The translations under genes were made by a program, and so were the position numbers. Shown here one piece after another: positions 4,282 through 21,116 of a stretch of 64,000 nt of DNA. The notes beneath the pieces were generated by a model. It was not told the DNA's origin. It ran no database searches and worked only from the letters and a program-made list of their open reading frames with translations. Source of the stretch: Sneathiella aquimaris (GTDB lineage: Bacteria > Pseudomonadota > Alphaproteobacteria > Sneathiellales > Sneathiellaceae). Numbering within the stretch: position 1 is the stretch's first letter; the number at the start of each line of letters is the position of its first letter. The DNA is taken from positions 1,659,501 through 1,723,500 of the forward strand of contig NZ_CP112881.1 of NCBI RefSeq assembly GCF_026409565.1. The letters are read 5' to 3'.

Positions 4282-4863
4282 TCAGGATTGTTGGTACTTG
4301 GCGATGATAAGGGCTTCTGCGTGGCGGCAGGATTGATCGGCCGGAGGATGGCTCGCCACGGCAACAGCTTGCGCTGTCTTAATATTTTCATTTGTCGGGT
4401 ATATTTTTTTGAACCGATCGTTTGTGTCTGGCTGGCAATCGCATTCAAATACGCAAATATGAAGGACGATTTGCGGTGCGGTTAGCTGCGTTTCTTCCAG
4501 CGCAAACTTCTCAACACCCGGAAAAGTGGAATGCCGGGGAAGGGTTATCGTATAGTGCCTGGAGCTCGGCCATAAGTCGTAGATATTTTCCAGTTTCACA
4601 AAGTGCCCTACAACTTTGATTGTCTCCGTACGGGGCGTGTCCTGAAGGTACTGAGTTGGTTTTTCCTTCTGGATATTCTCCAAAATAATACTGCTGTCGA
4701 GTTCGAGAAAAGCCGATAATGTGGGTATCTCATGAGCCTGAATTTTTCGTTTTCCCTGAATAATGTCCGTTATTCTAGGGCCCGGAAGGCCGAGCCTTAT
4801 CGCTAAATCCCCTTTTTTCTTGTTCAGAAATTTGAGTCTTTGCGCAATCCAAAGTCGTTTCAT
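4282..4863 (-). CDS. XRE-type helix-turn-helix regulator, degenerate repressor-like
   Basis: The start is ATG 4863-4861. Residues about 5-55 form a helix-turn-helix (LAIRLGLPGPRITDIIQGKR) of the Cro/CI type. The middle, IKVVGHFVKLENIYDLWPSS, resembles the first strand of S24/LexA-like phage repressor domains. However, the rest lacks a recognisable Ser/Lys dyad and looks worn or frame-disturbed. The gene points away from the phage-like cassette and faces it across a 350-bp control region with an inverted repeat and a rightward promoter. It is therefore a good candidate for the regulator of that cassette. Function is inferred from position and the HTH only. Confidence 0.7.
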   Translation of the reverse strand: MKRLWIAQRLKFLNKKKGDLAIRLGLPGPRITDIIQGKRKIQAHEIPTLSAFLELDSSIILENIQKEKPTQYLQDTPRTETIKVVGHFVKLENIYDLWPSSRHYTITLPRHSTFPGVEKFALEETQLTAPQIVLHICVFECDCQPDTNDRFKKIYPTNENIKTAQAVAVASHPPADQSCRHAEALIIAKYQQS

Positions 4864-4898
4864 GGTGTGTCTCAATCAACAGGTGCTATTAGTCTAAA

Positions 4899-5211: not shown

Positions 5212-5766
5212 ATGAAAATCGTGACAAAAAGTAAAGTGGGAACCTGTAAAGAGTATTTATCGGGTGTAACTTCAAGGGTCATTTCGGCGTCACCCGTTAA
5301 ATATGCGGCAAATGACAATATTTCGGACAAGGAAATTGCGGAATGTTTGCGTCGTAATCAAATGCCTCACGGCCAAAAAAGAATGCGGCGGCAAGATAAA
5401 AGGCTTTGGGAAGCAATGACCGATTGCCAGTTTAGGTCGGCCCAGCAGCTTTATTATGGCTTTCAAATGCTTGTGTCCGGTATTGGGTATAGAACCCAGG
5501 TGTTTGATACTCTTCCAAAAGGGAAATTGTATATACCAGATACACGATCAGATCTGATTGATCGATTTACTGCATGGGCCAAAGAAGCCCGATGTGAGGA
5601 TATATCAGTGGGCGACATTCTGGATATTCTGGCATTTGGCCATAGCTGCCGTGATGTCGACAGACTGAAAGCGCGGCGTAAAGGGTATGCAAAGGTGAAC
5701 TTGATTGCAGGTCTGGATCTGTTCGCCGGTTTAGTAGAAATCAATTATAAAGAGAATAGTTGTTGA
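5212..5766 (+). CDS. Phage-associated hypothetical protein
   Basis: A 184-aa basic protein, the first rightward gene of the cassette, separated from the terminase genes by a promoter and terminator. No family is recognised. A middle segment is rich in Arg/Lys (QKRMRRQDKRLW), and the last third is helical with DRLKARRKGYAKVNLIAGLDLFAG split by charges; the total looks like a DNA- or RNA-binding helical protein. It contains an AANDN tract near residue 38, also seen at the far end of the cassette. ATG 5212 sits only 2 nt after GGGGGA; GTG at 5221 has better spacing and may be the real start. A role as late-gene regulator is a guess from position. Confidence 0.6.
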   Translation: MKIVTKSKVGTCKEYLSGVTSRVISASPVKYAANDNISDKEIAECLRRNQMPHGQKRMRRQDKRLWEAMTDCQFRSAQQLYYGFQMLVSGIGYRTQVFDTLPKGKLYIPDTRSDLIDRFTAWAKEARCEDISVGDILDILAFGHSCRDVDRLKARRKGYAKVNLIAGLDLFAGLVEINYKENSC

Positions 5767-5791
5767 CAGGCCGGGGTCTTTTCTGTACTAT
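5763..5791 (+). promoter_or_regulatory. Strong sigma70-like promoter before terminase genes
   Basis: A perfect -35 TTGACA at 5763-5768, a 17-bp spacer and TACTAT at 5786-5791, with TATATT overlapping at 5789-5794. It overlaps the stop codon of the preceding gene. Transcription would begin near 5798-5800, only 12-15 bp before a terminator-like hairpin at 5812. Confidence 0.6.
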
Positions 5792-5811
5792 ATTATTCAA
5801 CGTCGAAAATT

Positions 5812-5847
5812 GGGTCCACAGCTATCACAAGCTGAGGGCCTTTTTTT
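5812..5847 (+). terminator. Hairpin plus T7 in the late-operon leader
   Basis: The arms GGGTCCACAGCT (5812-5823) and AGCTGAGGGCC (5830-5840) form an imperfect stem with one wobble and one mismatch, followed by seven T (5841-5847). It lies just downstream of the promoter at 5763 and about 125 nt before the small terminase gene, so it can act as an attenuator or as the end of a short leader RNA. Confidence 0.55.
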
Positions 5848-5971
5848 ATGGGAAAAATCCAATTTATACAGGCACTTAAGGTTTAGTCGTTTTTTTTAAG
5901 AAAATCGAACTGAATTTACGTGAAAAAAAATGATGTTGCCGATAAACTTTTAAGTTGAAGGTGGAGGATAT

Positions 5972-6391
5972 ATGACTAAGCGAAAAAATTCGCTTGAATG
6001 GCTCCAGAGAATAATCGAAGAAAGATTGTTTACGAATAACTGGACGCGAACTGTTTTGGAAAAGTTGGAACACTCGACCGATAAAAAAACAGTCCTTTCT
6101 TCTTTAAGCAGCGTTTTCAACAAACGAGAATATGAAAAAGTCCGCCAGTTTCTGGCGGACTTTTTTGCTGGTGAAATTGTCGATATTGCGGATGGCGCTG
6201 AAGTGGACAAGGAAGACGACACGCCGCCGCAATCGATCGCAAAGGCGAAACTTCGGATCGAAACCAGGAAATGGTTGATGGAACATCTGTCACCCGAAAG
6301 ATATGGAAATTCTAAACCACAAAAAACCGCAGATGCAGTCCGCTCATTTTTTAAAGCGAAGGTCTATTTACCCGACAATGGCAGAGATTAA
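5972..6391 (+). CDS. terS: Phage terminase small subunit
   Basis: A 139-aa protein with an N-terminal helical part and the C-terminal signature of small terminases, RKWLMEHLSPERYG, where a conserved tryptophan helix is followed by P-x-x-YG. Small terminases recognise the packaging site and activate the large subunit. GGAGG lies 6 nt upstream of the ATG. The gene overlaps the large terminase start by 14 bp, consistent with coupled translation. The assignment rests on the RYG signature and on position directly before the large subunit. Confidence 0.75.
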   Translation: MTKRKNSLEWLQRIIEERLFTNNWTRTVLEKLEHSTDKKTVLSSLSSVFNKREYEKVRQFLADFFAGEIVDIADGAEVDKEDDTPPQSIAKAKLRIETRKWLMEHLSPERYGNSKPQKTADAVRSFFKAKVYLPDNGRD

Positions 6392-7721
6392 ACCACAACC
6401 AGGGCCACAAGAACGGTTTCTATCCAGCAAAGCGGATATTGCCATTTACGGTGGCGCGGCGGGAGGCGGCAAAAGCTTTGCGCTTCTTCTGGAGCCACTC
6501 AGGCATGTAACAGACCCCTTGTTCAGAGCCGTTTTGTTTCGCAGAACCGGCAAGCAAATAAGAGTGGAAGGGGGACTGTGGGATGCGTCCCGTCAGATAT
6601 ACGGGGCACTGGGGGCGGCTGCAAAAGAAACAGATCTGTTATGGCGTTTTCCAAGCGGTGCAACGATCAGTTGCGGATATATGGAGCATGAAAAAAATCG
6701 ATTTGATTGGCAAGGAACAGAGATAACCTATATCGGCTTCGACGAACTGACCCATTTCAGCCAAAACCAGTTTTTTTACCTGCTGAGCCGCAATCGATCG
6801 ATGGCCGCTATCCGTCCTTATATTCGGGCAACCTGTAATCCGGATGCAGACAGTTGGGTCGCCGGTTTTGTACGTTGGTGGATAGACCCCGAAACGGGTT
6901 ATGCCGACCCGACAAAATCTGGAAAGATCCGTTGGTTCGTCCGGGATGGAAATGATCTTGTTTGGGGGGATTGTCCAGAAGATTTGTTGGTGGATTATCC
7001 CGATCAGGTGCCCAAGTCTGTGACATTTGTTGCAGCGTCTGTTGATGATAATGCCATCCTTATGGCACGGGATGCGGGATATAAATCAAACCTTGCAGCC
7101 CTTGATCGGGTTGAAAGAGAGCGCCTGCTGCACGGTAATTGGAAGATTCGGCCCGCTGCGGGATATTATTTCAAGCGATCCTGGTTTTCGATGACACGAT
7201 CAATCCCAGTGACAGAAGCGTCGGTTCGCGGCTGGGACTTGGCGGCAACGGCTGAAACTGAACGGGAAAGCGGTGACTGGACCGTTGGCGCAAAAGTCAG
7301 CCGCGACACAAATGGCGGGTATATTGTTGAACATGTCGAGCGGTTTAAAGGATCTCCGGCAGAGGTCGAAGCGCGAATAGAAACGCGGGCTAGAGAGGAT
7401 GGCCAACAAGTCCAGATCGCATTACCACAGGATCCCGGTCAGGCTGGCAAGGCCCAAGCCGCCAGTATGGTTCGGCGGTTAAGTGGTTTTCGGGTTCGGG
7501 CAACCGCTGTGACAGGCTCTAAAGTTACCCGGGCGGCCCCGTTTTCAGCGCAAGTGGAAGGGGGAAATGTGCGGTTACTTGAAGGAAATTGGAATGAGAG
7601 TTTTATCAACGAATTGGAAGGCTTTCCGTCTGGTCGGCATGATGATCAGGTGGATGCCGTTGTCGAGGCTTTTAACGCACTAAATTGCCGAAAAATAAAA
7701 CAGCAACAGGAAATGTTTTGA
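6378..7721 (+). CDS. terL: Phage terminase large subunit
   Basis: A packaging ATPase-nuclease of about 447 aa. Walker A is GGAAGGGKS (residues 25-33), Walker B is ITYIGFDE (116-123). The C-terminal RNase H-like nuclease begins at VRGWDLAATAE (about residue 285) and ends with RHDDQVDAVVEAF, its last acidic motif. An upstream ATG at 6303 would add 25 residues unlike the family; ATG 6378, overlapping the end of the small subunit gene, fits better. It stops in a TGATG overlap with the portal gene. Both catalytic centres look intact, so DNA packaging may still be possible. Confidence 0.92.
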   Translation: MAEIKPQPGPQERFLSSKADIAIYGGAAGGGKSFALLLEPLRHVTDPLFRAVLFRRTGKQIRVEGGLWDASRQIYGALGAAAKETDLLWRFPSGATISCGYMEHEKNRFDWQGTEITYIGFDELTHFSQNQFFYLLSRNRSMAAIRPYIRATCNPDADSWVAGFVRWWIDPETGYADPTKSGKIRWFVRDGNDLVWGDCPEDLLVDYPDQVPKSVTFVAASVDDNAILMARDAGYKSNLAALDRVERERLLHGNWKIRPAAGYYFKRSWFSMTRSIPVTEASVRGWDLAATAETERESGDWTVGAKVSRDTNGGYIVEHVERFKGSPAEVEARIETRAREDGQQVQIALPQDPGQAGKAQAASMVRRLSGFRVRATAVTGSKVTRAAPFSAQVEGGNVRLLEGNWNESFINELEGFPSGRHDDQVDAVVEAFNALNCRKIKQQQEMF

Positions 7722-9046
7722 TGAATAATCCATCGACGCCGTCTCCCCGATATCTAGAAATGCATAAGAAATGGGAACTTCCTCTCAGCTTGATGGGGGG
7801 CACGAAGGCCATGCGACATGCAGGTCAGCTTTTTTTGCCGCAGCATCCAGCTGAAAACAGCCGGGTCTATCAGGAGAGAGCAAGAAAAACGGTGCTTCGG
7901 AACTATTTTCGAAAAACCGTTCATAAACTGGTTGGGCAAATATTCGCAAACCCGTTAAAGGCGTCTGCGGATATGCCGGAAGTGATTGCCACCTATCTTA
8001 AAAATGTCGATTTGACAGGTCGCGGATTGAACAGTTTTGCCCAAAGCTGGTTCGAAGATGCCCTTGTTTGCGGGATGAGCCATGCCCTTGTTGATTTTCC
8101 TGTGAACGGGGACGCAACGGGATCAAGAAAAGGAGCTGACAGTAAGGCGCGTCCCTATGCCGTTCATATACCTGCAGCCAGCCTGATTTCGGCGGACTGG
8201 TCGGTGACAGCCACTGGCTACCGCCTCGACAAAATCAGGGTAAAGGAAGAGACCGCAGCCTATAGTGGTCAGGGGTCGGCGTCCGATGTTCAAATAAGAG
8301 AAATAACCCGTGATCATTGGGGGGTGTTCCGACAGGCCAAAGCAGGGCAATGGCAATGTGTGGATGAAGGTCAGAATTCTTTGGGTAAAATTCCCCTGAT
8401 AACCCTGTACACCAACAGGACAGGATTTCTGGAGGCAACGCCCCCGTTAGAAGATCTGGCTTGGCTGAATTTGGAGCATTATCAAATTCGATCTGATCAA
8501 CGTAACGCATTAAACGTCGCCTCTTTTCCGATCCTCGCAGCGTCCGGTTATGATCCAGAAGTTGATGGCCCCATAGAGGTTGGCCCCAATAAGGTACTGA
8601 CAACGTCGGACACGGACGGGAAATATTATTATGTTGAAAGTAGCGGGGCTGCTTTGGAGGCGGGCTCGAGGGAATTGCAGGATCTTGAAAAGGCAATTAA
8701 CCAATTCAGTTTACAGTTTGAAACCGGGCATGTAACGCAGACAGCGACCGGTCGAACACTTGATGCTTTGGAGGCCTTGTCGCCGCTTGTCGCGATGAGC
8801 AACGAGCTGGAAGATGCCCTGAATGCAATGTTGGGCATGTTTGCCGATTGGAAAGGCTTAAATGAAACCGGTTCGATCACGGTGTCCAGACAATCCCTTG
8901 AACGGTCCTATTCTGGCCAGAACCTTCAGGATCTAATTCTTTTATTTGATCGTCAGATCATCGATAGAACCGGGTTGGAGCGGGAGCTCGCGGCCCGTGG
9001 GATTTTGCAAAGTAGTTTGGACTTCAACAGTCACCCGTCTCAATAA
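7721..9046 (+). CDS. Phage portal protein (DUF4055 family)
   Basis: A 441-aa protein. The N-terminal region (YLEMHKKWELPLSLMGGTKAM, about 10-30) and the ensuing Arg-rich helix (RARKTVLRNYFRKTVHKLVG) are typical of DUF4055 portal proteins. It forms the dodecameric ring at the packaging vertex, binding terminase and then the connector. The start ATG shares one base with the terminase stop. The C-terminal part is helical (QDLEKAINQFSLQFETGHVTQ). The family occurs with P22-like coats in many siphoviruses and podoviruses, unlike the HK97-type portal of known gene transfer agents. Confidence 0.85.
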   Translation: MNNPSTPSPRYLEMHKKWELPLSLMGGTKAMRHAGQLFLPQHPAENSRVYQERARKTVLRNYFRKTVHKLVGQIFANPLKASADMPEVIATYLKNVDLTGRGLNSFAQSWFEDALVCGMSHALVDFPVNGDATGSRKGADSKARPYAVHIPAASLISADWSVTATGYRLDKIRVKEETAAYSGQGSASDVQIREITRDHWGVFRQAKAGQWQCVDEGQNSLGKIPLITLYTNRTGFLEATPPLEDLAWLNLEHYQIRSDQRNALNVASFPILAASGYDPEVDGPIEVGPNKVLTTSDTDGKYYYVESSGAALEAGSRELQDLEKAINQFSLQFETGHVTQTATGRTLDALEALSPLVAMSNELEDALNAMLGMFADWKGLNETGSITVSRQSLERSYSGQNLQDLILLFDRQIIDRTGLERELAARGILQSSLDFNSHPSQ

Positions 9047-9067
9047 GAATAATATGCCGTGTTGATC

Positions 9068-9093
9068 AAGCCTCCTTTTCAGGGGGTTTTTTT
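9068..9093 (+). terminator. Hairpin plus T7 between portal and scaffold
   Basis: AAGCCTCC (9068-9075) pairs with GGGGGTTT (9082-9089) around a TTTTCA loop, and seven T run 9087-9093, followed directly by ATG. It lies within a co-directional structural operon, 15 nt before the scaffold start, so it must be read through if both genes share one promoter. Confidence 0.5.
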
Positions 9094-9107
9094 ATGAAAG
9101 GAAACCT

Positions 9108-9710
9108 ATGTTCGATTTTCCATTGCTGATTGAGAGTAAAGATGAAATCCCAACAGAATTTCAGCCTCTTTATGAGCATAAGGACGGAAAGTACCAGCTG
9201 CTATCGGTACTTTCCGACAAACTGACAGGACAACCCGTTTCTTCGGATTTTCTTCAATTGCAGAATGCACAGGAAGAAACCCTGCAGCAGCTTAAGGAAA
9301 AGCAGGCGCAGCTGACAGGGGTCAAAACCCGGTTTCAGCAATATTATGCGGAAAAATCCATTTGCGAAGCACTGGAGCAAGCCAATGGTAGCAGCGCACT
9401 TCTGCTCCCTCATTTGCAAAAACAACTGCGGGTGAAAGAAGAAGGGGAAGACTTGTTGCTTGAGGTCCTTGATCATGAGGGGACTCCGCGTCTGACCGAT
9501 ACTGGGGCGCCATTTCAGTTGCCAGATCTTATCGAAGAAATGAAGGCCTCCTCGCTTTATGAAAAAGCGTTCGAGGAAAAAGGCGTATCAGGAGGGGGAA
9601 TGGTTTCCTCTGGTTCTGCGACGGGATCATTTTCCATCAATCGCCAGGATCAAACTGCTCTGAACTCCCAAATTGAAGCCATTGCCGCAGGAAGAGTGTC
9701 AGTAACCTGA
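9108..9710 (+). CDS. Phage head scaffolding protein
   Basis: A 200-aa acidic protein with a long predicted coiled coil (about residues 60-95, NAQEETLQQLKEKQAQLTG), lying directly before the coat gene. That position and composition are typical of scaffolds, which shape the procapsid and leave before or during packaging. No head maturation protease domain is seen, in contrast to HK97-type cassettes. The start has AAAGGAAACCT before the ATG. Identification rests on position and composition, not on a sequence signature. Confidence 0.65.
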   Translation: MFDFPLLIESKDEIPTEFQPLYEHKDGKYQLLSVLSDKLTGQPVSSDFLQLQNAQEETLQQLKEKQAQLTGVKTRFQQYYAEKSICEALEQANGSSALLLPHLQKQLRVKEEGEDLLLEVLDHEGTPRLTDTGAPFQLPDLIEEMKASSLYEKAFEEKGVSGGGMVSSGSATGSFSINRQDQTALNSQIEAIAAGRVSVT

Positions 9711-9740
9711 TAACCGGCTTTTTATCAGGATTTGTTTTTA
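9706..9740 (+). terminator. Hairpin between scaffold and coat genes
   Basis: CCTGATAA (9706-9713) and TTATCAGG (9722-9729) form a perfect 8-bp stem with an 8-nt loop, followed by the T-rich ATTTGTTTTT. The stem overlaps the scaffold stop codon. It may be a weak terminator or a processing or stability element that sets coat mRNA apart from scaffold mRNA. Confidence 0.4.
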
Positions 9741-9766
9741 CCCAACTTTTATCTTGGAGAAAATAT

Positions 9767-10897
9767 ATGTCTAATGATGTCTCGGCAGTAATGCCAAAAA
9801 TTCTCGCTCGTGGTCTGATGTCTTTGCGGGAACAGGCAATTATGCCCCGACTGGTGAACGGCAATTATAGTGCCTATGCCGCCGAAAAAGGCGATACAAT
9901 TGATGTTCCTATCCCCGCAGACTTAACAGCTGAAAATGTAACACCGGGGAGCACCCAACCCGCACCAACCTCTGTTGCATTGCAAAAAGTCCAGATTGAA
10001 TTGAATAACTGGAAAAAAGCGAACTTTCATTTGACAGATAAGGAAATGATGGAAGTTGACGGACGGGAGAGTTTTTTGCCGATGCAGGCAAGTTCTGCGA
10101 TCCGGGCGCTTGCAAATGCGGTCAATCAGTCAATTCACTCAGAATATAAAGGGGTTTATGGCACCGTCGGTGTGCCAGGGGCAACGCCTTTCGCCTCCAC
10201 GTCCAAGGATGCAACCAATGCCCGGAAACTTCTACTGAAACAGCGGGCACCCAAAGAAAACCGATACGGCGTTCTCAATTTTGATGCGGAAGCAAATGCA
10301 TTGGATCTTGCTGCATTTGCGGATGCGGATAAAGCGGGAGATACGTCGGCAAAGCTGGAAGGTGAAATTGGCCGCAAATATGGGATCAACTGGTATAGCG
10401 ACGATCATGTGGCCCGACATGAAACAGGGGCCAGCGGTACGCCGCTGGTTGTTGCATCTGGGTCAGGGGGAAATCAGTTGGTGCTGGACGGCCTTATTAC
10501 CAAACCTGCGATTGGGGATGTCTTTACGGTCGACGGTGATGAGCAGCAATATGTGGTTCGAAGCGCCACAGACCTGTCAGTTGATGAAAGCACATTGACT
10601 ATCTCACCAGCGCTTAATCCTGGATATTCTGATGGAACTGCGGTGACATTTTTAGCCAGCCATGAAGTCAATCTGGTCTTTAACCGGGACGCCTTTGCTT
10701 TCGCCAATCGACCGCTCGCGCAAAGCAGTGCTGAAAATGGTCTGGGCAATCAGATTATGTCCATGACAGACCCTGAAACCGGGCTGTCTTTGCGATTGGA
10801 AGTAAGCCGTCAATATAAGCAGGTTGTGTGGGAATTTGACATTCTGTGGGGGGTTAAACTTGTACGCCCAGAACTGGCCGTGCGCCTTGCGGGTTAA
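9767..10897 (+). CDS. Major coat protein, P22-like family
   Basis: A 376-aa protein resembling the P22 gp5 coat family. The N-terminal region reads PRLVNGNYSAYAAEKGDTID, typical of the first helix and E-loop. An inserted domain of about 50-60 aa occurs near residues 220-290, and the C-terminal signature is HEVNLVFNRDAFAFANRPL. It would build the icosahedral shell with the scaffold. A strong ribosome-binding site, GGAGAAAATAT, precedes the ATG, fitting high expression. Known Rhodobacter-type gene transfer agents use an HK97-like coat with a protease instead, so this head module has a different origin. Confidence 0.85.
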   Translation: MSNDVSAVMPKILARGLMSLREQAIMPRLVNGNYSAYAAEKGDTIDVPIPADLTAENVTPGSTQPAPTSVALQKVQIELNNWKKANFHLTDKEMMEVDGRESFLPMQASSAIRALANAVNQSIHSEYKGVYGTVGVPGATPFASTSKDATNARKLLLKQRAPKENRYGVLNFDAEANALDLAAFADADKAGDTSAKLEGEIGRKYGINWYSDDHVARHETGASGTPLVVASGSGGNQLVLDGLITKPAIGDVFTVDGDEQQYVVRSATDLSVDESTLTISPALNPGYSDGTAVTFLASHEVNLVFNRDAFAFANRPLAQSSAENGLGNQIMSMTDPETGLSLRLEVSRQYKQVVWEFDILWGVKLVRPELAVRLAG

Positions 10898-10912
10898 TCG
10901 GTAAGGAATAGA

Positions 10913-10943
10913 GGGCGAAAGCAGGTTCTTTCGCCCTTTTTTT
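10913..10943 (+). terminator. Strong hairpin plus T7 after coat gene
   Basis: GGGCGAAAG (10913-10921) and CTTTCGCCC (10928-10936) make a perfect 9-bp stem with a 6-nt loop, followed by seven T (10937-10943) and ATG. This is the best intrinsic terminator in the cassette. Placed after the most abundant product, it could lower expression of all tail genes relative to coat. Confidence 0.7.
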
Positions 10944-10962
10944 ATGGGAAGGGCATTGAAAA

Positions 10963-11436
10963 ATGACATTTATTGTCGAAACAGGAACGGGCATATCCCA
11001 GGCGACGAGCTATCTTTCGCAAGAGGTTGCAGATGCACATTTTACGGCCCTGGGGCTGGCGGAATGGACGCGCGCCAATGACGCGAACAAACGGCGGGCT
11101 CTCATGCAGGCAAGCGCCTATGTCGATGGGTATGTGTATGGCGGCAGTCTATTGAATGTGGCTCAAGGGTTGAGTTGGCCTCGGCAAGGGTCGCATGATC
11201 GGGAAGGGCGGGCTTTAAAGGGGTTGCCACATGCGCTTAGAACGGCGGTTCTGGAAATGGCGGCCCTGTATATTGCGAAACCCCCTGCGGCCCAAGGCGC
11301 TTCCTATATTATCCGGGAAAAAGTCGGTCCCATCGAACTTGCTTATTCAAAAAGCAAGCAGCAGCCCAGTTTTGTGTTTCGGTTGCTCCAGCAAATTGGA
11401 GCACGACCACCGATGAACATGGTGCAAAGGGGATAA
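10963..11436 (+). CDS. Head-tail adaptor (DnaT-like phage protein)
   Basis: A 157-aa protein of the helical adaptor family often annotated as putative DnaT-like ssDNA-binding protein. The features are TGISQATSYLSQEVADAHFT near the N-terminus, an alanine-rich helix (RALMQASAYVDG), WPRQG in the middle and LRTAVLEMAALYIAK. Its place right after the coat gene is that of connector Ad1 (HK97 gp6 or GTA gp6 equivalents), which docks on the portal. The DnaT label is a family name only; a structural role is much more likely. Confidence 0.75.
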   Translation: MTFIVETGTGISQATSYLSQEVADAHFTALGLAEWTRANDANKRRALMQASAYVDGYVYGGSLLNVAQGLSWPRQGSHDREGRALKGLPHALRTAVLEMAALYIAKPPAAQGASYIIREKVGPIELAYSKSKQQPSFVFRLLQQIGARPPMNMVQRG

Positions 11437-11437
11437 A

Positions 11438-11797
11438 ATGGACCAAGATGCAATTCAAAGCGCTATCCGGCGGGTTTTTGAAAATGTTGGAGATGTTGCG
11501 ATCTCGTCGCATTTAGGGGTTCAGGAATTCCCGGTCTATCAACCCGGATTTGAACCTGAACCAACGCTGACTGAATATTCAGTCCGTGTCATTCCCATAA
11601 AAACGCCAGTATTAAAGTCGTTGATTGCCACTGACTTGATCGATGACGAAGGGTATCAGATTGGCTTGATGGAATGCGAAGATGTGGTTCCAAAGAGTGG
11701 GGATCAACTGAGAATCCAGGGCACTGTGTTCAGTATAATCCAGGCCGCTCCTGTTGATCTGAATGCCGATCTTTTATTTGAGGTTTGGTATCGATGA
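11438..11797 (+). CDS. Head-closure / stopper-like protein
   Basis: A 119-aa mainly beta protein (for example LRIQGTVFSIIQAAPVDL, VRVIPIKTP) located one base after the adaptor gene stop. Proteins of this size and position close the capsid after packaging and connect it to the tail (stopper, GTA gp7 equivalent). I recognise no precise signature, so the role is assigned from gene order and beta-rich composition. Confidence 0.6.
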   Translation: MDQDAIQSAIRRVFENVGDVAISSHLGVQEFPVYQPGFEPEPTLTEYSVRVIPIKTPVLKSLIATDLIDDEGYQIGLMECEDVVPKSGDQLRIQGTVFSIIQAAPVDLNADLLFEVWYR

Positions 11798-11837
11798 GCG
11801 TTCAACTTTTATTCGTCGGGGATCGCAGGAGAAATAC

Positions 11838-12227
11838 ATGAGCTATCGAAAAATTCGAGCGGCGCTGGATCAGTCTCTTCAAGACTTTGCCGGGCCCGAG
11901 ATCGTGTTTCCGTCGACTGCCTATAAACCGGCTCATGGACAGGATTTTATCGAGGTTGATTTTAATCCAGGCACTTCAAAGTCGGTCTTTTTAGGTCCGT
12001 CAGTCGATCGGGAATATCGTGGTCAACTTCTGTTATCCATCCGGGCCAGGACAGTTTACGCGGCGATTGAAATTGCAGATCAGCTTCGGGCCCATTTTGC
12101 CTCCGGAACCGTTTTGGCGTTCGAAGATTTAAAGGTCACCGTGGAAAATTCACGGCTTGGTAAAAATCGCGGAGGCGTGAAGTTTGTCGCTCTTCCTCTT
12201 TCTGTCAACTGGCGCAGCTATTTTTAG
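11838..12227 (+). CDS. Tail terminator / completion protein (DUF4128-like)
   Basis: A 129-aa protein starting at ATG 11838, preceded by CAGGAGA with good spacing; an earlier start at 11763 would add unrelated residues and overlap the stopper gene. It has the alpha/beta pattern of tail terminators: MSYRKIRAALDQSLQDF, an exposed loop with PAHGQDFIEV, and the end VKFVALPLSVNWRSYF. Terminators cap the top of the tail tube and join it to the stopper. The family link to DUF4128 is from motif memory and position. Confidence 0.65.
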   Translation: MSYRKIRAALDQSLQDFAGPEIVFPSTAYKPAHGQDFIEVDFNPGTSKSVFLGPSVDREYRGQLLLSIRARTVYAAIEIADQLRAHFASGTVLAFEDLKVTVENSRLGKNRGGVKFVALPLSVNWRSYF

Positions 12228-12235
12228 GAAATCAC

Positions 12236-13141
12236 ATGGTCTATTCAGCACAATCGCAACATGGGATGGCATATATCAAAGAAAGCCTTTATGGCGAAGT
12301 GCCGTCCAGCCCGACAATGACAACCCTTCGACATACGGGATGCAGCCTTGCATTAAACAGGACCTCAATTCAAAGTGATGAAATTCGCCCGGACCGGCAA
12401 ATGGGACATTTTGTGCCGGGGCAGACTTCGATCAGCGGGGATATCGACTTCGAGCTTTGTTATGGTTCGCATGACGATCTTCTGGCCAGTGCATTTTATG
12501 GTGACTGGGTTGGAGATACATTGAAAACGGGAGCGTCGGAGAAAAGCTTCTCCATCGAGCGGATCTTTGGCGATGTCGGGCATTATCAAGTTTTCTCTGG
12601 ATGCGTGGTAGATGAATTTTCGCTGAGCGTGCAACCAGACAGCCTTGTTACTGGACGGTTCTCGATTAAAGGAAAAGAGCTGGCGATTTCAGGAACGCCT
12701 CTTGATGTCGCGCCGATCACTGTCTCCAACCATACCCCGATTGATAGTTTTAAGGGGCAGGTTCTTGAAAATGGTGTTGAACTGGCAATTGCGGCCGGCA
12801 TTGATCTGAAAATCGAAAATAATGTTGAAAGCGTGTTTACACTCAGCGATGAAACATCGATCGGACTTACCGCTGGCCGATCCCGTGTAAGCGGTGAGCT
12901 GACCGCGTATTTTTCAAATGATGCCTTGCTTGATCGGTTTATCCAGAAAACACCCAGCAGTCTAGAGATTGCGTTGGTGGGGGACGGCGGTCGGTATGAA
13001 ATTCACCTTCCAAACATTTTGTATATGGGCGCAGACATGCCGGTTAAAGGGGATGGCGCTGTCATTTTGACCTTACCGTTTGTTGCCCAATATGACGACG
13101 TCGAAGGCACAAATATTAAACTGACAAAAACAGCGATTTAA
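12236..13141 (+). CDS. Tail tube protein
   Basis: A 301-aa beta-rich protein directly before the chaperone gene, the position of the major tail tube subunit. Visible features are YIKESLYGEVPSSPTMTTL at the N-terminus, RPDRQMGHFVPGQTSISGDI, typical of phage tail tube proteins with a repeated-fold layout, and VILTLPFVAQYDD near the C-terminus. Its length, about twice a minimal tube protein, suggests a two-domain tube subunit as in trimeric tubes. AGGAAATC precedes the ATG. There is no sheath gene, so the tail is non-contractile. Confidence 0.8.
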   Translation: MVYSAQSQHGMAYIKESLYGEVPSSPTMTTLRHTGCSLALNRTSIQSDEIRPDRQMGHFVPGQTSISGDIDFELCYGSHDDLLASAFYGDWVGDTLKTGASEKSFSIERIFGDVGHYQVFSGCVVDEFSLSVQPDSLVTGRFSIKGKELAISGTPLDVAPITVSNHTPIDSFKGQVLENGVELAIAAGIDLKIENNVESVFTLSDETSIGLTAGRSRVSGELTAYFSNDALLDRFIQKTPSSLEIALVGDGGRYEIHLPNILYMGADMPVKGDGAVILTLPFVAQYDDVEGTNIKLTKTAI

Positions 13142-13151
13142 GGAGACCTAC

Positions 13152-13550
13152 ATGCTTGCTCACTCCATATCTGATTATGATCTTGCATCTCTGGATTTTT
13201 CAAAACAGGCAGAAACCGCGGCAAGAATGCAGCTTAAACATCCGGTGACCGGGGAGGCCTTGCCCACCTGTATCTGGTTGCAGGGAATTGATGCCCCAGC
13301 CTATCGGGAAACTCTCAGGCGACAGATCGATGAGCAAATTGAACAGGGAAGAGAAGAGCTGAAAGCGTTAGATCTGGAAAATCGCCATCTTCAGCGTCTG
13401 GCTGCCTTAACCGTGAAATGGGAACAGGTGACTTATCACGGTAAGGACATCGTTTTCAGTACGGCCAATGCCGAAAAACTTTATCGGGAACAGGTTTGGA
13501 TCCGCGAGCAGGTGACCCGATTTGTCGAGGATCGTTCTCGTTTTATTTGA
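13152..13550 (+). CDS. Tail assembly chaperone, G-like form
   Basis: A 132-aa protein: GEALPTCIWLQGIDAPAYRE, an acidic helical middle, then LAALTVKWEQVTYHG and STANAEKLYREQVW ending EDRSRFI. This is the layout of siphoviral gpG-type chaperones that coat the tape measure before tube polymerisation. The gene ends in TGA at 13548-13550, but the -1 frame stays open from 13445 to 13870 and encodes a T-like domain (next entry). A longer GT product is therefore expected, as in lambda. Confidence 0.8.
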   Translation: MLAHSISDYDLASLDFSKQAETAARMQLKHPVTGEALPTCIWLQGIDAPAYRETLRRQIDEQIEQGREELKALDLENRHLQRLAALTVKWEQVTYHGKDIVFSTANAEKLYREQVWIREQVTRFVEDRSRFI

Positions 13551-13870
13551 GCCTGACCCGATGCTTGGAAGAATTCTTAATAAGCAAAATTGCCGATGAA
13601 AAAACGGTCAACAAGCATGGGGTCAGGCAGGAGCAGGCTTTGCGTCAGGTGGGCGTCATGTCAAGTTCACACCGGAGGAAATTGCCGAATGCCGCCTGTC
13701 ACTTGTGGGATTGGTTTTTGATCCTGTTGGACATTCAGGCGGCCTCAGAGGGTGGATTATTAAACTGGGTTCCAGTTCTGGAGCCAATTATCGGGTTGTC
13801 TCCCCGGCCTTGGGAGGTGCGCGCGCTTTGGCGCTTATTACTGGTTTGGCGCCTGAACAAAGAAACCTGA
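13547..13870 (+). CDS. T-like extension of the tail chaperone in the -1 frame
   Basis: In the -1 frame relative to the G-like gene, about 107 codons encode a helical domain with the usual chaperone T-domain pattern: LWDWFLILLDIQAASEGG in the middle and IGLSPRPWEVRALWR near the end. The family pattern is W-x-x-F ... P-W-E-x-x-A. It has no ATG start; TTG 13547-13549 overlaps the G-like stop (TTGA). It is thus made either by -1 frameshifting near the run T TTT ATT (13541-13547) or by reinitiation. No canonical X XXY YYZ heptamer is seen in the overlap. The boundary given is the earliest plausible one. Confidence 0.65.
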   Translation: MSLTRCLEEFLISKIADEKTVNKHGVRQEQALRQVGVMSSSHRRKLPNAACHLWDWFLILLDIQAASEGGLLNWVPVLEPIIGLSPRPWEVRALWRLLLVWRLNKET

Positions 13871-13883
13871 AGGAACATACGAC

Positions 13884-13906
13884 AACGGCTTTGCGGCCGT
13901 TTTTTT
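13884..13906 (+). terminator. Hairpin plus T7 before tape measure gene
   Basis: AACGGC and GCCGTT arms around TTTGCG, followed by seven T ending at 13906 and then GTGGGG. It lies 14 nt before the tape measure ATG inside a co-directional operon. Confidence 0.5.
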
Positions 13907-13919
13907 GTGGGGAATTGAA

Positions 13920-14621
13920 ATGGAAACAGACTTGTCGGAATTGGAAATCGAGGTGGAGACTGCGCAAGTTGACCAGGCAATACAGCGTCTGGATGAATTG
14001 CATAAAAAGAGCCTGGAAGTTGAAAAGTCTGTTCGCGGCCTTTCTTTTGGCAAAAGCTTGGGATCCCTTGAGGGGCTGTTTGGTTCGGGTGGCGGAGCCA
14101 GCCCAAAACTGGCTGGATCATTGGATTTTCTGTGGCTTCAGGGATCTAAAGTTGCAACTGATCTAAACCGGACGTTTGGCGCAGCTTTTGATGATTTTAT
14201 TGTGAAGGGTAAAGATGCAGAAGCCGTTCTTAAGGGGATGGAAAAAAATCTTCTCCGTTTGGGCACCCAGTATTTTACGGGAAAAAGCGGCAACCAGGGT
14301 CTGTTTTCATCGCTGTCGTCTTTTGCAGGTAACTTCCTGACAGATATATTTCCCGGTTTTGCGTCTGGCGGGTCATTCTCAGTCGGCGGTGCTGCCGGGA
14401 AAGACAGAAATTTGGTCGGGATGCGATTAACCCGCGGTGAGACAGTCACAATAAAAACGCCAGCGCAACAGAAACAGGAGCCACTGAAAGACAGCGGCGG
14501 CGCTGTTTCAATAAACTTCCAGATACAGACCCCGGATGCCGATAGTTTCAGGCGATCGCAGGCGCAAATTCAAACGGCGGCCTTGACACAGGCCCAACGT
14601 CTTTTAAAGCGAAACGGATAA
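13920..14621 (+). CDS. Very short tape measure protein (GTA-type)
   Basis: The start is ATG 13920, preceded by GGGGA; a TTG at 13905 is less likely. The 233-aa protein has an N-terminal coiled coil (VETAQVDQAIQRLDELHKKS), a hydrophobic central part (FDDFIVKGKDAEAVLKGM), then the glycine-rich FASGGSFSVGGAAGKDRNLV with RLTRGETVTIKTP, which is the C-terminal signature of gene-transfer-agent tape measures. Siphoviral tape measures usually exceed 600 aa; the Rhodobacter GTA protein is also only about 220 aa. A tail of about 30-50 nm is predicted at about 1.5 angstrom per residue. This is inference. Confidence 0.85.
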   Translation: METDLSELEIEVETAQVDQAIQRLDELHKKSLEVEKSVRGLSFGKSLGSLEGLFGSGGGASPKLAGSLDFLWLQGSKVATDLNRTFGAAFDDFIVKGKDAEAVLKGMEKNLLRLGTQYFTGKSGNQGLFSSLSSFAGNFLTDIFPGFASGGSFSVGGAAGKDRNLVGMRLTRGETVTIKTPAQQKQEPLKDSGGAVSINFQIQTPDADSFRRSQAQIQTAALTQAQRLLKRNG

Positions 14622-14624
14622 GAT

Positions 14625-15233
14625 ATGAGCTTTCATGAAATTAGATTGCCAACCCGGATTTCCTATGGGGCCGTGGGTGGACCGCGTTTTTCAACCACCA
14701 TACAGCTTCTCAACTCCGGTCATGAGCAGCGAAACATCAATTGGTCCGTAGCACGCCGGGAATACACGGTTGATATAAGCCCAAGCCGGGCCAATGAATG
14801 GGAGGCGCTGCTTTCTTTTTTTCATGCCCGGCGCGGCCGAGCCTATGGTTTCCGGCTAAAGGATTTTTCTGACTACAAAATTCGGAATGAAAAAATAGCC
14901 TTAGCGGATGGTGTTTCAAGCCGCTTCCAAGTTCAAAAAAATTATCAGGATAGTGATGGTTTCGCGCCGGGATTTATCCGCATCATCAACAAAATCGTAC
15001 CCGGAAGTGTGACTGTTTTTTTGGATGGGGTCGCGCAGTTTGGGAACTGGACGATCAACGACAATACCGGCTCCGTAGAATTTAATTCACCCCCCGCAGA
15101 GGGGACGGAAGTTTCAGTGAACTGCGAGTTCGATGTGCCTGTTCGGTTTGATACGGACCTGATGGAGGCCAGTATTCCCGGGCCTGATATTCATCAATGG
15201 CAAAGCGTGAAAATGATTGAGATACGCCAATGA
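14625..15233 (+). CDS. Distal tail protein, DUF2460 / GTA gp12-like
   Basis: A 202-aa protein with the DUF2460 signature: FHEIRLPTRISYGAVGGP at the N-terminus, SGHEQRNINWSVARREYT, and FFHARRGRAYGFRLKDFSDY. The family forms the distal tail ring that joins tube and hub. In gene transfer agents this is gp12. It overlaps the next gene by four bases (ATGA). The sequence appears intact, with a typical C-terminal EASIPGPDIHQWQSVKMIEI. Confidence 0.93.
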   Translation: MSFHEIRLPTRISYGAVGGPRFSTTIQLLNSGHEQRNINWSVARREYTVDISPSRANEWEALLSFFHARRGRAYGFRLKDFSDYKIRNEKIALADGVSSRFQVQKNYQDSDGFAPGFIRIINKIVPGSVTVFLDGVAQFGNWTINDNTGSVEFNSPPAEGTEVSVNCEFDVPVRFDTDLMEASIPGPDIHQWQSVKMIEIRQ

Positions 15234-16078
15234 AGAATTTGTCGAATGAAGTTTTATTGCATATAAAACAAGAAGTTACGTCAATTTCCTCATTTTTGGT
15301 GATAGATCGAAAAGACGGTGTTTCTTTTCGGTTTACAGACCATGATCAGGATGTCCACATCGCAGGCGAACGATATATTTCGGCAGAAGGGTTTGATCGA
15401 TCGGCGCTGAAAGGAAGCAGCGCCAGTGATACGGATGACCTTGAAATTACCGGTATCCTGAGCAGCGAATACCTTCAGGAAGAAGAGTTAAAGGCCGGAC
15501 TGTTCGATTATGCCGAAATAAGATATTTCCTTGCAAATTGGCAGGCTCCTGAACAGGGGTTAATCCCTTTGCGAAAAGGGTGGTTGGGCGAGGTCCGCTG
15601 GTCTGAAGGGCTGTTTACAGCTGAAATACGCGGGCTTACTGATGCCTTGAAGCGCCAGATCGGAAAAATTTATGCGCCAGAATGTCAGGCCGATTTCTGC
15701 GATGCTGCATGTCAGTTGGACCCATTTCTGTTTCGGCATACTGATACAGTTGCGGAAATCAAGAACACTAATGAAGTTATTTTAACCGGTTATCAGGGGG
15801 ATGTAGAGGCACTGTCGGGAGGCATATTGTCTTTTGTTACCGGATTAAACGCAGGCGGTCATTTTGAAATTGATGCCTGGGATCCAGTAACAAAAACACT
15901 GACCCTTTTTCTGCCGCTGCCTTTTAAAGCAGAGAGTGGGGATACGGTTTTTCTGGTTGAAGGCTGCGATAAACGCTTTGCCACCTGCCGGGACAGATTT
16001 GAAAATCAATTGAATTTCAGGGGCTTTCCCTCAGTCCCTGGAACGGACAGTCTGGCAGGACCAACCAATGGATCATAA
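15230..16078 (+). CDS. Tail hub protein, DUF2163 / phage BR0599 family (GTA gp13-like)
   Basis: A 282-aa protein of the DUF2163 family, with ISSFLVIDRKDGVSFRFTDHD near the N-terminus split by the usual GFDRSALKGSSAS stretch, and GCDKRFATC RDRFENQLNFRG in the C-terminal domain. Cysteines at about 152, 157, 161, 246 and 253 follow the pattern that in lambda gpL binds a 4Fe-4S cluster. Hub proteins of this class connect the distal ring to the tip. The start overlaps the distal tail gene by four bases; the end overlaps the peptidase gene by 11 bp. Confidence 0.92.
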   Translation: MKNLSNEVLLHIKQEVTSISSFLVIDRKDGVSFRFTDHDQDVHIAGERYISAEGFDRSALKGSSASDTDDLEITGILSSEYLQEEELKAGLFDYAEIRYFLANWQAPEQGLIPLRKGWLGEVRWSEGLFTAEIRGLTDALKRQIGKIYAPECQADFCDAACQLDPFLFRHTDTVAEIKNTNEVILTGYQGDVEALSGGILSFVTGLNAGGHFEIDAWDPVTKTLTLFLPLPFKAESGDTVFLVEGCDKRFATCRDRFENQLNFRGFPSVPGTDSLAGPTNGS

Positions 16079-16487
16079 TTCGCAGCTGATTGAAACAGCC
16101 CGGAAATGGATTGGCGTTCGTTGGGTTCATCAAGGACGTAGCCGGCAACAGGGGGTGGACTGTGTCGGGCTTTGTCATTGCGTTGCAACAGAATGCGGGA
16201 TCAGTGTGCCCGATATTCAGGGATATTCACGCCGACAGGATGGTAGCGCTTTAATGGCGTTATTGAATACGTCCTTGGCGTCGATCCCCGTCCGCGCGGC
16301 AGGGGTGGGAGATATCGCTGTCTTTAAGGATATGGGCTACCCGGTTCATATGGGGATCCTATCCTGCCAGTCCGGTACAGCCACCGTAATTCATGCCCAT
16401 GCAAGGCGGCGTCAGGTTCTGGAAGAAGCGCTTGCACCATACGGCCAACCATTTGCCTGTTTTCGTATTTTAAAGGGAGAAAAATAA
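16068..16487 (+). CDS. Tail-associated NlpC/P60 cell-wall peptidase (GTA gp14-like)
   Basis: A 139-aa protein with the NlpC/P60 catalytic motif GVDCVGL (C32), histidine H94 in VHMGIL and a third polar site near H109-H111 (IHAHA). These enzymes cut peptide stems of peptidoglycan to let the tail penetrate. In gene transfer agents gp14 occupies this place. All three catalytic positions seem present. The gene overlaps both neighbours: its stop shares its last base with the tail-tip start (TAATG). Confidence 0.9.
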   Translation: MDHNSQLIETARKWIGVRWVHQGRSRQQGVDCVGLCHCVATECGISVPDIQGYSRRQDGSALMALLNTSLASIPVRAAGVGDIAVFKDMGYPVHMGILSCQSGTATVIHAHARRRQVLEEALAPYGQPFACFRILKGEK

Positions 16488-19400
16488 TGGCGACATTGGC
16501 GTTAAGTGTGGCGGGCGCTGGCTTAGGTTCAGTGACCGGGGTCGGCGCGGGAGCAGGCTGGCAACTGGGCTCGGCACTCGGGCAGATATTTTTTCCTGAT
16601 CAGAAAAAGCAGGGCCCAAGCCTGACAGACCTTAAGTTTTCAGGAGCCTCCTATGGCGCATCTATACCCACAGTGTTTGGAACTATGCGGCTTGGGGGAA
16701 ACCTGATCTGGGCCGGACCTTTGGAAAGCCGGTCATCGGCTCAAGAATATGGCGGTAAAGGGGGGCTGGGAGGCGAGACCAAGTCTTCTTCGGGATATAA
16801 ATACTATGCCAGTTTTGCCATCGGTCTGGCACAAGGGCCTGTTGGGGAAGTGTTAAAAATCTGGGCGGATGGGACCGTCATTTTTGACATGACAGCAGCT
16901 GGTTCAATTCGGGCACCGGGGGTTTCATTTCGCTTTTACAAGGGGAGTGAAGACCAGATACCCGATGGCATCATTGTCAGTGAAGAAGGAATTGCAAATA
17001 CACCGGCCTACCGGGGTGTTGCGTATCTGGTATTTGATAGCCTTCCGTTGGAGGCTTATGGCAACCGAATTCCCAATATTGAAGTTTTGATGAGTATGGA
17101 AGGGGTTCATCATTTTCCGCTGGAGGAAGGGGCGGTTGTCTCAATCGATGCATCCTCCCTTTCCTACGATCCGATCCGCGAAACAGTTTACACATACGAA
17201 GTTACAGGCGGTGTCGACCGTTTTCGAAAAATCGAAGGGCAAAGCCTTGTGGTACAGGCGAGCGCCGAAATTGGAACTGAATTTCCGCGATTGGCCACCA
17301 GCACAACGGGATTGTCTCGTGATCGGAATGGCAATTTCTGGATTGGGTCAGGCTTCGCCTTGTTACCCGGTCGTCGTCTGTCCGTCTTTAGCGGTCAAGG
17401 GTTTACAGAAGTTGGAACAACCGAATTGCCCGGGCATATCGGTGCAGTCAGCTGGTCTACGGATGTGTTGGCACCATCGAACGGCAGTCTGTTCCAAGTG
17501 GCAGGCTCTCAACAATCAGGTCAGGTTGTGCTGTTTGATCAGCATTTGGACGTCATCGATTTTCACACTGTGGAGAGTCCGGTCTGTACGGGGGGTGTCA
17601 CGGATCAATTTGAGACAGCGTGGGTAGCAATGTCGGGCAATATTTCGGCGTTTCCCTTTGAAGACCTTCAAATTTGCAGCATGCGTTTGAACACAGCCCC
17701 TTCGGAAACTGGCACTGTCTATAACGGTGATTTTCAGGTTCATACAATACCGTCAGCCGCGCTGACGCCCGCGGGTGGAGGCGGCAGCGAAACAAACAAC
17801 GTGACCCGGTTGGTGGCAATACTGGAAAAACGCAGGGAACTGGTTTTTCAAAATGACGAACGCCTCTTTAAATGGTCGATGGATACGAAAAATGTGACGG
17901 TTGTCAGGGACAGTAACTCTCTGGGGCTGTTATCGCTTAATAACACGACCAATGAAGACGAGCTGGTATATCTTCATGGCGGCCAATGGCTGGTTTATCT
18001 CGATGCAGAAACGCTTGAGGAAACGGAGCGAGTTGATCTTTTAGCCTTCGACGGCGTCGCCGATTTCAGCAATTATATTTACGATGCGCAAACGGATAGT
18101 GTTTTGCTGTTCGCAACGTCAGCACCTGTGCGCAGGCTGTTTCTCCGCCGCCGGTACGGTAAGGACGCCGTTCTTTCGGAGATGGTTCAAAACCTGGGAA
18201 AAATGGCAGGACTTCTTCCAGAAGATATCGACATTTCAAAACTTTCGGGGTCTATTCCCGGATATATTCTGAACCGCAATATGACAGTTCAAAATGCGCT
18301 GGAACCCCTGATGGTTGCTGGTGATTTTGATCTGTGTGAAAGTGGGTATCAGCTACAATTTGTCCCCAGAGATACGGGCCCTCAGCATAATCTTTTTCTC
18401 GAAGAATGTTTGTCCCCGGTATCGGATGAGCGCCTTCAGGAAAGTGAATTGCCGGGTACGATTTCCATCAACTATATGGCGGCCGATAATGGCTATCAGC
18501 TAGGGGCTCATCAAGCGAAACGAAGCTTTGCCCCGTATTCAACAATGTTTGGGCGAAATGCTGTCAATCATGATCTCCCAATGGCTTTGACGGCACCGCT
18601 CGCAAAAGCAACCTGCCGTCGGATCCTATATTCTGCCTGGACAGAGCGTCAGCAGTTTTCTGTTGCCTTGCCGACGCGCTACCTTGCCCTTGATCCAACC
18701 GATCTTTTATCAATTTCCACGCCGAAAGGAGAGATGAAAGGGCGCGTTGTTCAAGCGGATTTTGGCGCTGATCTTTCCCATCAGGTCAAAGGCGTCGCGG
18801 TGGGCGGGGCACCTTCTGGAAAATCAACACTTGCGGATACGGGCAGCGGGTATCAACCGATGTCAATCTCTCGCCCAAGTTCGGCAGAGCTGTTCGTCCT
18901 TGATATTCCCTTGCTGCGGGATGAGGACGCGACGGGAGGAAGCGGAAGCAGGTATTATTTTGCGGCGGACGGAAACACGACCCGTTGGCAGGGAGCGGCC
19001 TTGTTTCGCAGTGATGAAAGTGGCACGGCATTTTACCAACGGGGCAGTGTACAAAATGAACCGGCTTGGGGAATTGCCACAAGTGTGCTTGAGCCGACAC
19101 AAAATCCCTGGCAGACAGATTATAAAAATTCCGTAGTGATAAACATGTTGAACGGTGAAGACCGGCTAGAAGAAGTGACGCGGGATTTATTGCTCAGCGG
19201 GGCGAATGCCATGCTATTGGGGCAGGAGATTATCCAGTTCCAATCTGTAGCGCTTCAACCTGACGGGAGGTATTTGCTCAGCAACCTATTGAGGGGGCGC
19301 AGGGGAACTGAAGGGGCGATGCAGGCGCACAGAGTGGGCGACGTCGGAATTCTTCTTCAACCTGAAATCCTTGGGCGCGATATTGCACCACTCTCCATGC

Positions 19401-20632: not shown

Positions 20633-20663
20633 CAGGCATTCACCTTCAAGTGTGGGAAAAGTT

Positions 20664-20882
20664 ATGGAAAAACTAGAGAATGAAATCGGAACCATGAGGG
20701 TCCGAATTGAAAATTTACATTTGGGTATGGTGGAGTTGCGCGAGGACGTGAAAGCCTTGAGCGGGCAGGTCAGTATGGGGCGTGGGGCTTTGAAGTTTGT
20801 TGGCCTCACAGGCACCGTCATCGTTGCGTTAATTACATTCATTGCCTGGTTGGGGCAAACCTTCAAACCATTTGGCATGTAA
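20664..20882 (+). CDS. Small coiled-coil and single-helix membrane protein, XhlA-like
   Basis: A 72-aa protein with an N-terminal amphipathic coiled coil (LENEIGTMRVRIENLHLGMV) and one membrane helix, residues about 46-65 (GLTGTVIVALITFIAWLG). This is the layout of haemolysin XhlA-like phage proteins that assist holins at the membrane. GTGGGAAAAG precedes ATG 20664; an in-frame ATG at 20625 would overlap the fibre gene. Its location in the lysis position supports a role in particle release. Confidence 0.65.
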   Translation: MEKLENEIGTMRVRIENLHLGMVELREDVKALSGQVSMGRGALKFVGLTGTVIVALITFIAWLGQTFKPFGM

Positions 20883-20912
20883 ACGAAAAGTTTTCTTCCG
20901 AGGAGAAGTGAT

Positions 20913-21116
20913 TTGGATAATCTGGATATGTTGAATTTAGACAGCGGGCTTTTATTGCAGGCGTTCAATGGTCTGTCTTTTATCGTTGTTGTAGCGACCT
21001 TTATTACGTCTTTTACGCCGTCCCGATCAGATGATCTGGTGGTTGATAAGGCCTTGTCTATCTTGAATATTCTGGCAGGGAATGTGGGCCTCAACCGAAA
21101 CGCGGATGATAAATGA
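20913..21116 (+). CDS. Small membrane protein, holin-like
   Basis: A 67-aa protein. TTG 20913 is preceded by AGGAGA at 20901-20906 and is favoured over ATG 20928. One hydrophobic helix (about residues 18-34, FNGLSFIVVVATFITSF) is followed by a conserved-looking tail, TPSRSDDLVVDKALSILNIL, seen in small phage membrane proteins beside lysis genes. It ends in an ATGA overlap with the lipase gene, so both are translationally coupled. Holin function is inferred from size, helix and context. Confidence 0.55.
   Translation: MDNLDMLNLDSGLLLQAFNGLSFIVVVATFITSFTPSRSDDLVVDKALSILNILAGNVGLNRNADDK

Follow-up and report, generated by a model that had tools for sequence, protein, structure and literature searches.

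Introduction

In phage lambda, the gene for the Q regulator lies directly upstream of the late promoter, which is also how gene 5212, the gene examined here, stands to the promoter that we describe. RcGTA clusters are vertically conserved, as is the Sneathiella cluster analyzed below, and their head type is one other than the P22-type coat. At the gene transfer agent (GTA) promoter of Caulobacter crescentus, Tran and Le 2024 (PMC11150451) describe GafZ, an element between -10 and -35, and terminator bypass; they also describe a degenerate -35 and a need for GafY and IHF, with a consensus -35 abolishing the need for an activator. Literature on this system further describes RogA, a LexA-like repressor that holds gafYZ in Caulobacter, and the naming of DUF6456 for GafA homologues in a GafA paper. 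In a 2019 survey (PMC6821227), the table row for Sneathiellales closes with 0% as the share of OTUs that have RcGTA-like clusters, under column heads that are partly cut off.

Here we analyze 64,000 nucleotides of Sneathiella aquimaris DNA (contig NZ_CP112881.1, positions 1,659,501 to 1,723,500; hereafter the window), in which a promoter and an intrinsic terminator stand between gene 5212 and a terminase operon. A search of titles and the starts of abstracts, outside which many subscription papers fall, found no published description of this locus.

Results

A promoter followed at once by a terminator

The leader and its neighboring genes comprise the following features, with conservation counted over 21 aligned Sneathiella loci (rows L001-L021):

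4282-4875, - strand: XRE-type HTH protein, read away from gene 5212 (E 8.2e-5 to the transcriptional repressor phrog_1468)
5212-5766, + strand: gene 5212, 184-aa candidate antiterminator gene (homology, profile relation, fold alignment)
5763-5768, + strand: -35 element TTGACA (TTGA in 21/21 rows, TTGACA in 18/21)
5772-5778, + strand: spacer element CGGGGTC, putative site of the 5212 protein (GGG there in 20/21 rows)
5786-5791, + strand: -10 element TACTAT (TANNNT in 21/21 rows)
5798-5803, + strand: -10-like CAACGT at positions -1 to +5, candidate sigma-dependent pause element (CANNNT in 20/21 rows)
5812-5847, + strand: leader intrinsic terminator, hairpin 5812-5841 plus T-tract (z -4.22, arm co-variation)

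A preliminary description of this DNA had reported TTGACA-N17-TACTAT followed by a stem and T7, ending about 125 nt before the small terminase gene, and this arrangement is present as described: the promoter spans 5763-5791, the terminator hairpin (GGGUCC-A-CAGCU-AUCACA-AGCUG-A-GGGCCU) begins 20 bp further on and runs into a tract of seven T (5841-5847). The small terminase reading frame starts at 5972, 124 nt past the last T. The stop codon of gene 5212 falls inside the -35 hexamer, the promoter spacer measures 17 bp, and the predicted start site is A5799. A transcript of 5799-5850 (52 nt) folds at -18.2 kcal/mol (z -4.22), with 0/200 shuffles as good.

The promoter match on its own is at chance level (5 sites found vs. 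4.6 expected from shuffles), and it is because of its conservation across Sneathiella that the module stands above chance. Three strong + strand terminators were found in 5701-22100, compared with 0 to 2 per shuffle (8 shuffles); this count includes the leader hairpin, which a simple terminator scan missed and a second, purpose-made scan recovered. We also scored the module with a sequence model that has the window's own row among its source rows; it gives 42.5 bits at the window leader, with a next best score of 15.2 bits among the matches listed in the same genome. The module site is single in its own genome (1 match at <=2 mismatches, with 2 matches in a reversed control), and an Rfam scan of the whole window returned only two tRNAs. 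The promoter-terminator arrangement in the window is confirmed as real; its conservation is described next.

The module is nearly fixed in geometry across Sneathiella

In 21/21 Sneathiella loci, the promoter-terminator module lies 3' of the gene 5212 homologue, and the leader is kept in 15/15 of the relatives' stretches that we examined. In addition to the elements listed above, CA occupies -1/+1 in 21/21 rows; two of the 21 have 18-bp spacers, and one spacer base was dropped to align their -10. The hairpin stem has its first base at +13 to +16 and its last at +42 to +46 in the 19/21 rows measured (the hairpin finder missed L008 and L010, both of which were scored in the arm-pairing test below), and it folds at -13 kcal/mol or better in 20/21 rows, with a poor hairpin in G018 (-2.6 kcal/mol). 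The CGGGG element is absent in G007. Relative to the stop codon of the gene, the promoter is positioned anywhere from -26 to +28 nt across loci, and the stop codon lies within the -35 hexamer in 4/21 rows, the window among them.

RNAalifold found no base pairs in a MAFFT alignment of the leaders, which does not bring the stems into register, and we therefore compared each hairpin with versions whose arms were swapped between species. The 5' and 3' arms pair with their own partners at a mean of -18.4 kcal/mol, compared with -11.1 kcal/mol when swapped, and 0/400 arm-swap permutations reached the own total. The arms of the leader hairpin thus co-vary.

This geometry bears on whether the hairpin is merely the end of the gene 5212 transcript, placed next to an ordinary late promoter that is constitutive or partly leaky, with antitermination absent. 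The terminator does sit 3' of gene 5212, whose mRNA it would also end; however, the hairpin begins within a 4-nt range (+13 to +16) after the promoter's start site in the 19/21 rows measured, while the distance from promoter to stop codon varies widely, the spacer element and the -10-like sequence are conserved, and extra terminator-like hairpins occur within the operon, all of which makes this reading unlikely. Conservation of +1 to +12 (ATAGTCGGAAAT-like) might alternatively point to the ~50-nt terminated RNA as a functional, trans-acting small RNA, in which a terminator stem follows a conserved 5' tail. Yet conservation extends upstream into spacer and -10 positions, which lie outside the transcript, and in the relatives examined the module precedes the terminase operon, except in G005, where the operon was lost; we accord a small-RNA function hardly any probability.

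We also searched 385 genomes of the class with a leader model (R1) of 22 rows, comprising the 21 Sneathiella rows and L039 from IMG/VR. Strong full-length matches appeared only in the 5 Sneathiella sampled, with all others at <=19 bits among the matches listed.

The operon encodes an apparently domesticated, GTA-like particle cluster with further terminators

Downstream of the leader, the operon comprises:

5972-6391, + strand: small terminase subunit, the operon's first gene (PF20901, E 1.5e-12)
6138-6166, both strands: second intrinsic terminator, inside the small terminase gene (-23.1 kcal/mol; hairpin 6138-6162)
6303-7721, + strand: large terminase subunit (phrog_979, E 1.5e-170)
7685-21745, + strand: rest of the cluster, with portal, scaffold, P22-type coat, tail tube, tape measure, RcGTA-type tail proteins, NlpC/P60 and lipase (family matches, synteny)
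10911-10944, + strand: third intrinsic terminator, directly 3' of the coat gene (terminator scan; hairpin 10911-10938)

The coat protein matches PF11651 (P22_CoatProtein), the tail genes match DUF2460, phiJL001_Gp84_N, NlpC/P60 and Rcc01698_C, and no integrase was recognised among the proteins scanned for families. In 13/15 relatives' stretches, as far as each reaches, the genes follow one another as 5212 - terS - terL - portal - coat - tail, with a few small genes lacking a tblastn match in single relatives. An internal deletion from portal to tail has left the terminases in G001 (L029), and G005 (L027) has lost the structural cluster and retained both the 5212 homologue and the leader. Nine genomes carry a single coat gene apiece, represented by two matched stretches, and the window's genome has one DUF2460 gene. 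The cluster is thus syntenic, at one place and in one copy per genome, as expected of a vertically kept gene transfer agent, with a P22-type coat present instead of the RcGTA-type head module. Because it adjoins cysK in 12/15 relatives examined, it looks like a domesticated, GTA-like element, not an ordinary prophage.

Terminator-like hairpins recur within the cluster. The stretch 6130-6172 folds at -23.1 kcal/mol (z -7.09 on the + strand, z -7.82 on the - strand), and its hairpin at 6138-6166 is perfect and bidirectional, with a counterpart at an equal place in 3/13 relatives (L025, L035, L036); the coat-gene terminator is found at an equal place in 6/13, by the scan's own label. Across the clusters of 13 relatives, we counted 52 terminator-like hairpins, of which 12 are leader hairpins (that of G018 was missed) and 40, many of them weak, lie elsewhere, compared with 1.03 per cluster (range 0 to 3) in 39 shuffled clusters. 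Three places recur: inside terS, between portal and scaffold, and behind the coat gene. The portal-scaffold gap holds a short, G+C-rich terminator-like hairpin in 10/13 relatives (in L036 the scaffold gene was not found), and none was found there in the window itself by the terminator scan of 5701-22100.

The gene 5212 protein is distantly related to GafZ-type proteins

Homologues of gene 5212 occur in 20/23 other Sneathiella genomes and in 0/36 other genomes, one of them from the same family; of the Sneathiella genomes without a match, two are ~65% complete and one is 98% complete in 580 contigs. Searches of Pfam and PHROG gave the gene no family with a meaningful E-value, and its protein found no match in phage records (nor did the L043 and L041 proteins, introduced below), none in IMG/VR as a single query, and only one chance-level match (E 1.1) in a PDB sequence search. 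The family alignment leaves out L022 (G020:C1:6201-6521), a second, weak and distant homologue within one genome, in which a TTGACA overlaps the stop codon and another TTGACA follows shortly 3'.

An AlphaFold2 model, built with 21 homologues, has a mean pLDDT of 78.5, rising above 90 in the C-terminal helices. None of the Foldseek matches to this model was significant. In VIA-align, ranks 1-3 of 449 chains are phage 21 Q (Z 8.2, 8.1 and 7.0 over 98-104 residues, the top alignment covering 104), although a best Z of 7-8 is usual for models without a clear match and higher still for mostly helical ones; the next ranks are mostly sigma region 4 domains (Z <=6.8, mostly over 60-76 residues). Sigma-region-4 folds are also the best matches of a second model, made from a Micavibrio-type homologue, for which phage 21 Q is not among the matches listed, a result that counts neither for nor against it. 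On these models, the fold of the 5212 protein is predicted to be sigma-region-4-like.

We next compared the family with DUF6456 (PF20057), a model that does match in Caulobacter. Its cut-off is reached in 0/24 Sneathiella genomes, and gene 5212 is absent from the 7 sub-threshold matches (E up to 10) in these genomes. Among the weak PF20057 matches in other alphaproteobacteria is a group of shorter proteins, which we take to be phage-type. Against a profile of 16 such phage-type rows, the gene 5212 profile scored a probability of 68.6 (P 4.6e-5, 102 collinear columns), compared with 20.7 (P 0.0011) against canonical DUF6456 (24 rows), while the phage-type and canonical profiles matched each other at 99.7; 0/60 column shuffles reached any of these observed scores. 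The phage-type profile draws on 16 of 22 weak DUF6456-like loci, leaving out L072, L073, L104, L109, L114 and L115 (the last two read like ECF sigma factors) as well as three further matches, and the canonical profile on 24 of 30 strong loci, with L077, L078, L082 and L094 removed to thin the set and L084 (translation out of frame) and L090 (stop) also left out. By profile comparison, then, the 5212 protein is distantly related to DUF6456/GafZ-type proteins, a relation that falls outside PF20057 membership. Separately, loci L096-L113 encode diverse DUF6456-like proteins of about 160-230 aa that are probably phage-borne and may be late-gene regulators of alphaproteobacterial prophages.

A protein residue varies with the spacer element

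The bases after the spacer GGG divide the loci into classes, with TC, GC or TA in 9 rows, AA in 10 and AT in one, and one row without GGG. Residue 157 of the protein sits just ahead of the final helix in the HTH region. It is K in 9/9 TC/GC/TA rows and N in 10/10 AA rows, whereas the AT row has S there and the row that lacks GGG has N. Eight alignment columns separate the two classes, and 157 is the only one fixed in both; among those fixed in the AA class, it is also the only column at which the AT row is unlike both classes. Where GGG is missing, the otherwise invariant residues 123, 147 and 156 are changed, and 147 and 156 lie in the HTH region. The pattern depends on one clade split plus two single rows, and it is broken by the distant phage L043 (N157, spacer GC); because the two classes part only once on the tree, we treat residue 157 as a lead, not as proof. 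We propose that the spacer element is the binding site of the 5212 protein.

A protein at such a site might act on initiation. An HTH-type protein between -35 and -10 could block RNA polymerase, and GafA is described as working via RNA polymerase omega, so that the 5212 protein could be a classical initiation repressor or activator at the spacer, with the terminator providing fixed attenuation. However, an activator should be unnecessary here because the -35 is consensus, just as a consensus -35 made the Caulobacter promoter activator-independent, and the terminator conserved at +13 to +16 would be left with no evident role. We regard control of initiation as very unlikely; with a consensus -35, control would instead rest on termination.

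A short motif recurs outside the genus

Outside Sneathiella, a 35-kb contig (L043) carries a large terminase downstream of a 5212 homologue and, at the stop codon of that gene, TTGACA-AC-CGGGGGC, a possible -10 and a terminator, and another locus (L106) carries TTGACT-TC-CGGGGGC and a terminator behind a DUF6456-like gene. These are the 2 of 30 distant genes with TTGAC[AT]-N2-4-CGGGG close 3' of the gene, where 0.0011 are expected per gene; the motif follows 0/27 canonical DUF6456 genes, and L041 comes close to it, with a gap of 1 nt. IMG/VR scans returned only two already known contigs for L043 and nothing for L106. A homologue of the 5212 protein is also retained in L054 and L056-L062 (labelled Micavibrio or Alphaproteobacteria). 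Behind seven of these Micavibrio-type genes (L054, L056-L058, L060-L062; L059, cut by a contig end, was excluded) no such leader was found, and their target site, if any, should therefore lie elsewhere. Together with the failure of the leader model to reach L043, L041 or L106, this indicates that the shared part consists of the architecture and a short motif.

Discussion

We consider it probable that a cis-encoded, Q-type processive antitermination switch is loaded and gated at this leader. In such a switch, the consensus sigma-70-type promoter would fire without an activator, and, without the 5212 protein, RNA polymerase would get no further than the terminator, 43-49 nt on, yielding only a short RNA. 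The -10-like CANNNT at -1 to +5 would set a promoter-proximal pause, at which the 5212 protein, sigma-region-4-like and bound to the CGGGG-type element between -35 and -10, would load onto the paused polymerase and travel along with it. The modified polymerase would then pass the leader terminator and the later ones across the 16-kb particle operon. With a terminator next to the promoter and the 5212 protein as antiterminator, particle production would come under one switch.

The preliminary description had suggested a lambda-like late operon in which either gene 5212 or the XRE protein controls readthrough. The lambda-like reading is well supported by comparative anatomy, and gene 5212 probably encodes the protein that lets polymerase pass; the spacer element, the -10-like sequence at the start site, the inner terminators and the apparent genus-wide domestication are additions to that description. 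A readthrough role for the XRE protein, on the other hand, is set aside because a tblastn match to it lies beside the locus in only 7/15 relatives' stretches, compared with 15/15 for the leader. Where present, the XRE protein is more likely a repressor of gene 5212, which it may hold as RogA holds gafYZ.

If this reading is correct, it adds a compact, cis-encoded Q-type switch for the alphaproteobacteria, and one gene plus one leader would offer a simple handle for turning on a candidate GTA in a genus for which the 2019 survey of RcGTA-type clusters, in its partly legible table, lists none (PMC6821227). It would also tie GTA regulation to phage late-gene antitermination and make the question of origin directly testable. 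Along these lines, we tentatively suggest, at a little under even confidence, that GafZ-type regulators and the 5212 family are branches of one superfamily of phage late-gene antiterminators. The GTA master switch would therefore descend from a phage Q-like protein, with Sneathiella keeping its ancestral and self-contained version, in which ~650 bp hold the regulator gene, the spacer site, the pause element and the terminator, before a P22-capsid GTA, and with residues 156-157 reading the spacer bases. Our search of titles and abstract starts found no published description of a P22-capsid GTA like the one proposed here for Sneathiella.

Among known systems, we would class the Sneathiella leader, on its sequence, as a variant of Q/GafZ-type antitermination. 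With GafZ, it shares a sigma-factor-like HTH regulator, an element between -10 and -35, terminator bypass (here proposed), an alphaproteobacterial GTA-type cluster, and proteins that are distantly related by profile. It differs in that a single cis-encoded gene stands directly before the operon, the -35 matches the consensus, coding sequence immediately precedes the promoter, the coat is P22-type, and the terminator starts at +13 to +16, whereas that of Caulobacter lies behind the first gene; the Sneathiella protein also falls below the DUF6456 model cut-off. With Q of lambda and phage 21 and with pR', it has in common an element between -35 and -10, an initial-transcribed -10-like sequence and a terminator behind the late promoter (PMC6606751), and the best aligned fold is that of phage 21 Q. 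However, a profile search of PDB sequences detected no sequence relation to phage 21 Q, and the Sneathiella site is CGGGG-type whereas that of phage 21 is a TGAGCA direct repeat. AlpA of Pseudomonas aeruginosa (PMC7969949) likewise has its element between -10 and -35, with an intrinsic terminator ahead of the first gene, a likeness of described architecture, but it controls a lysis programme rather than a particle cluster. Finally, the cluster has the same kinds of tail protein as RcGTA (DUF2460, phiJL001_Gp84_N, NlpC/P60 and Rcc01698_C), but combines them with a P22-type coat and scaffold and with no DUF6456 gene over the cut-off in 24 genomes.
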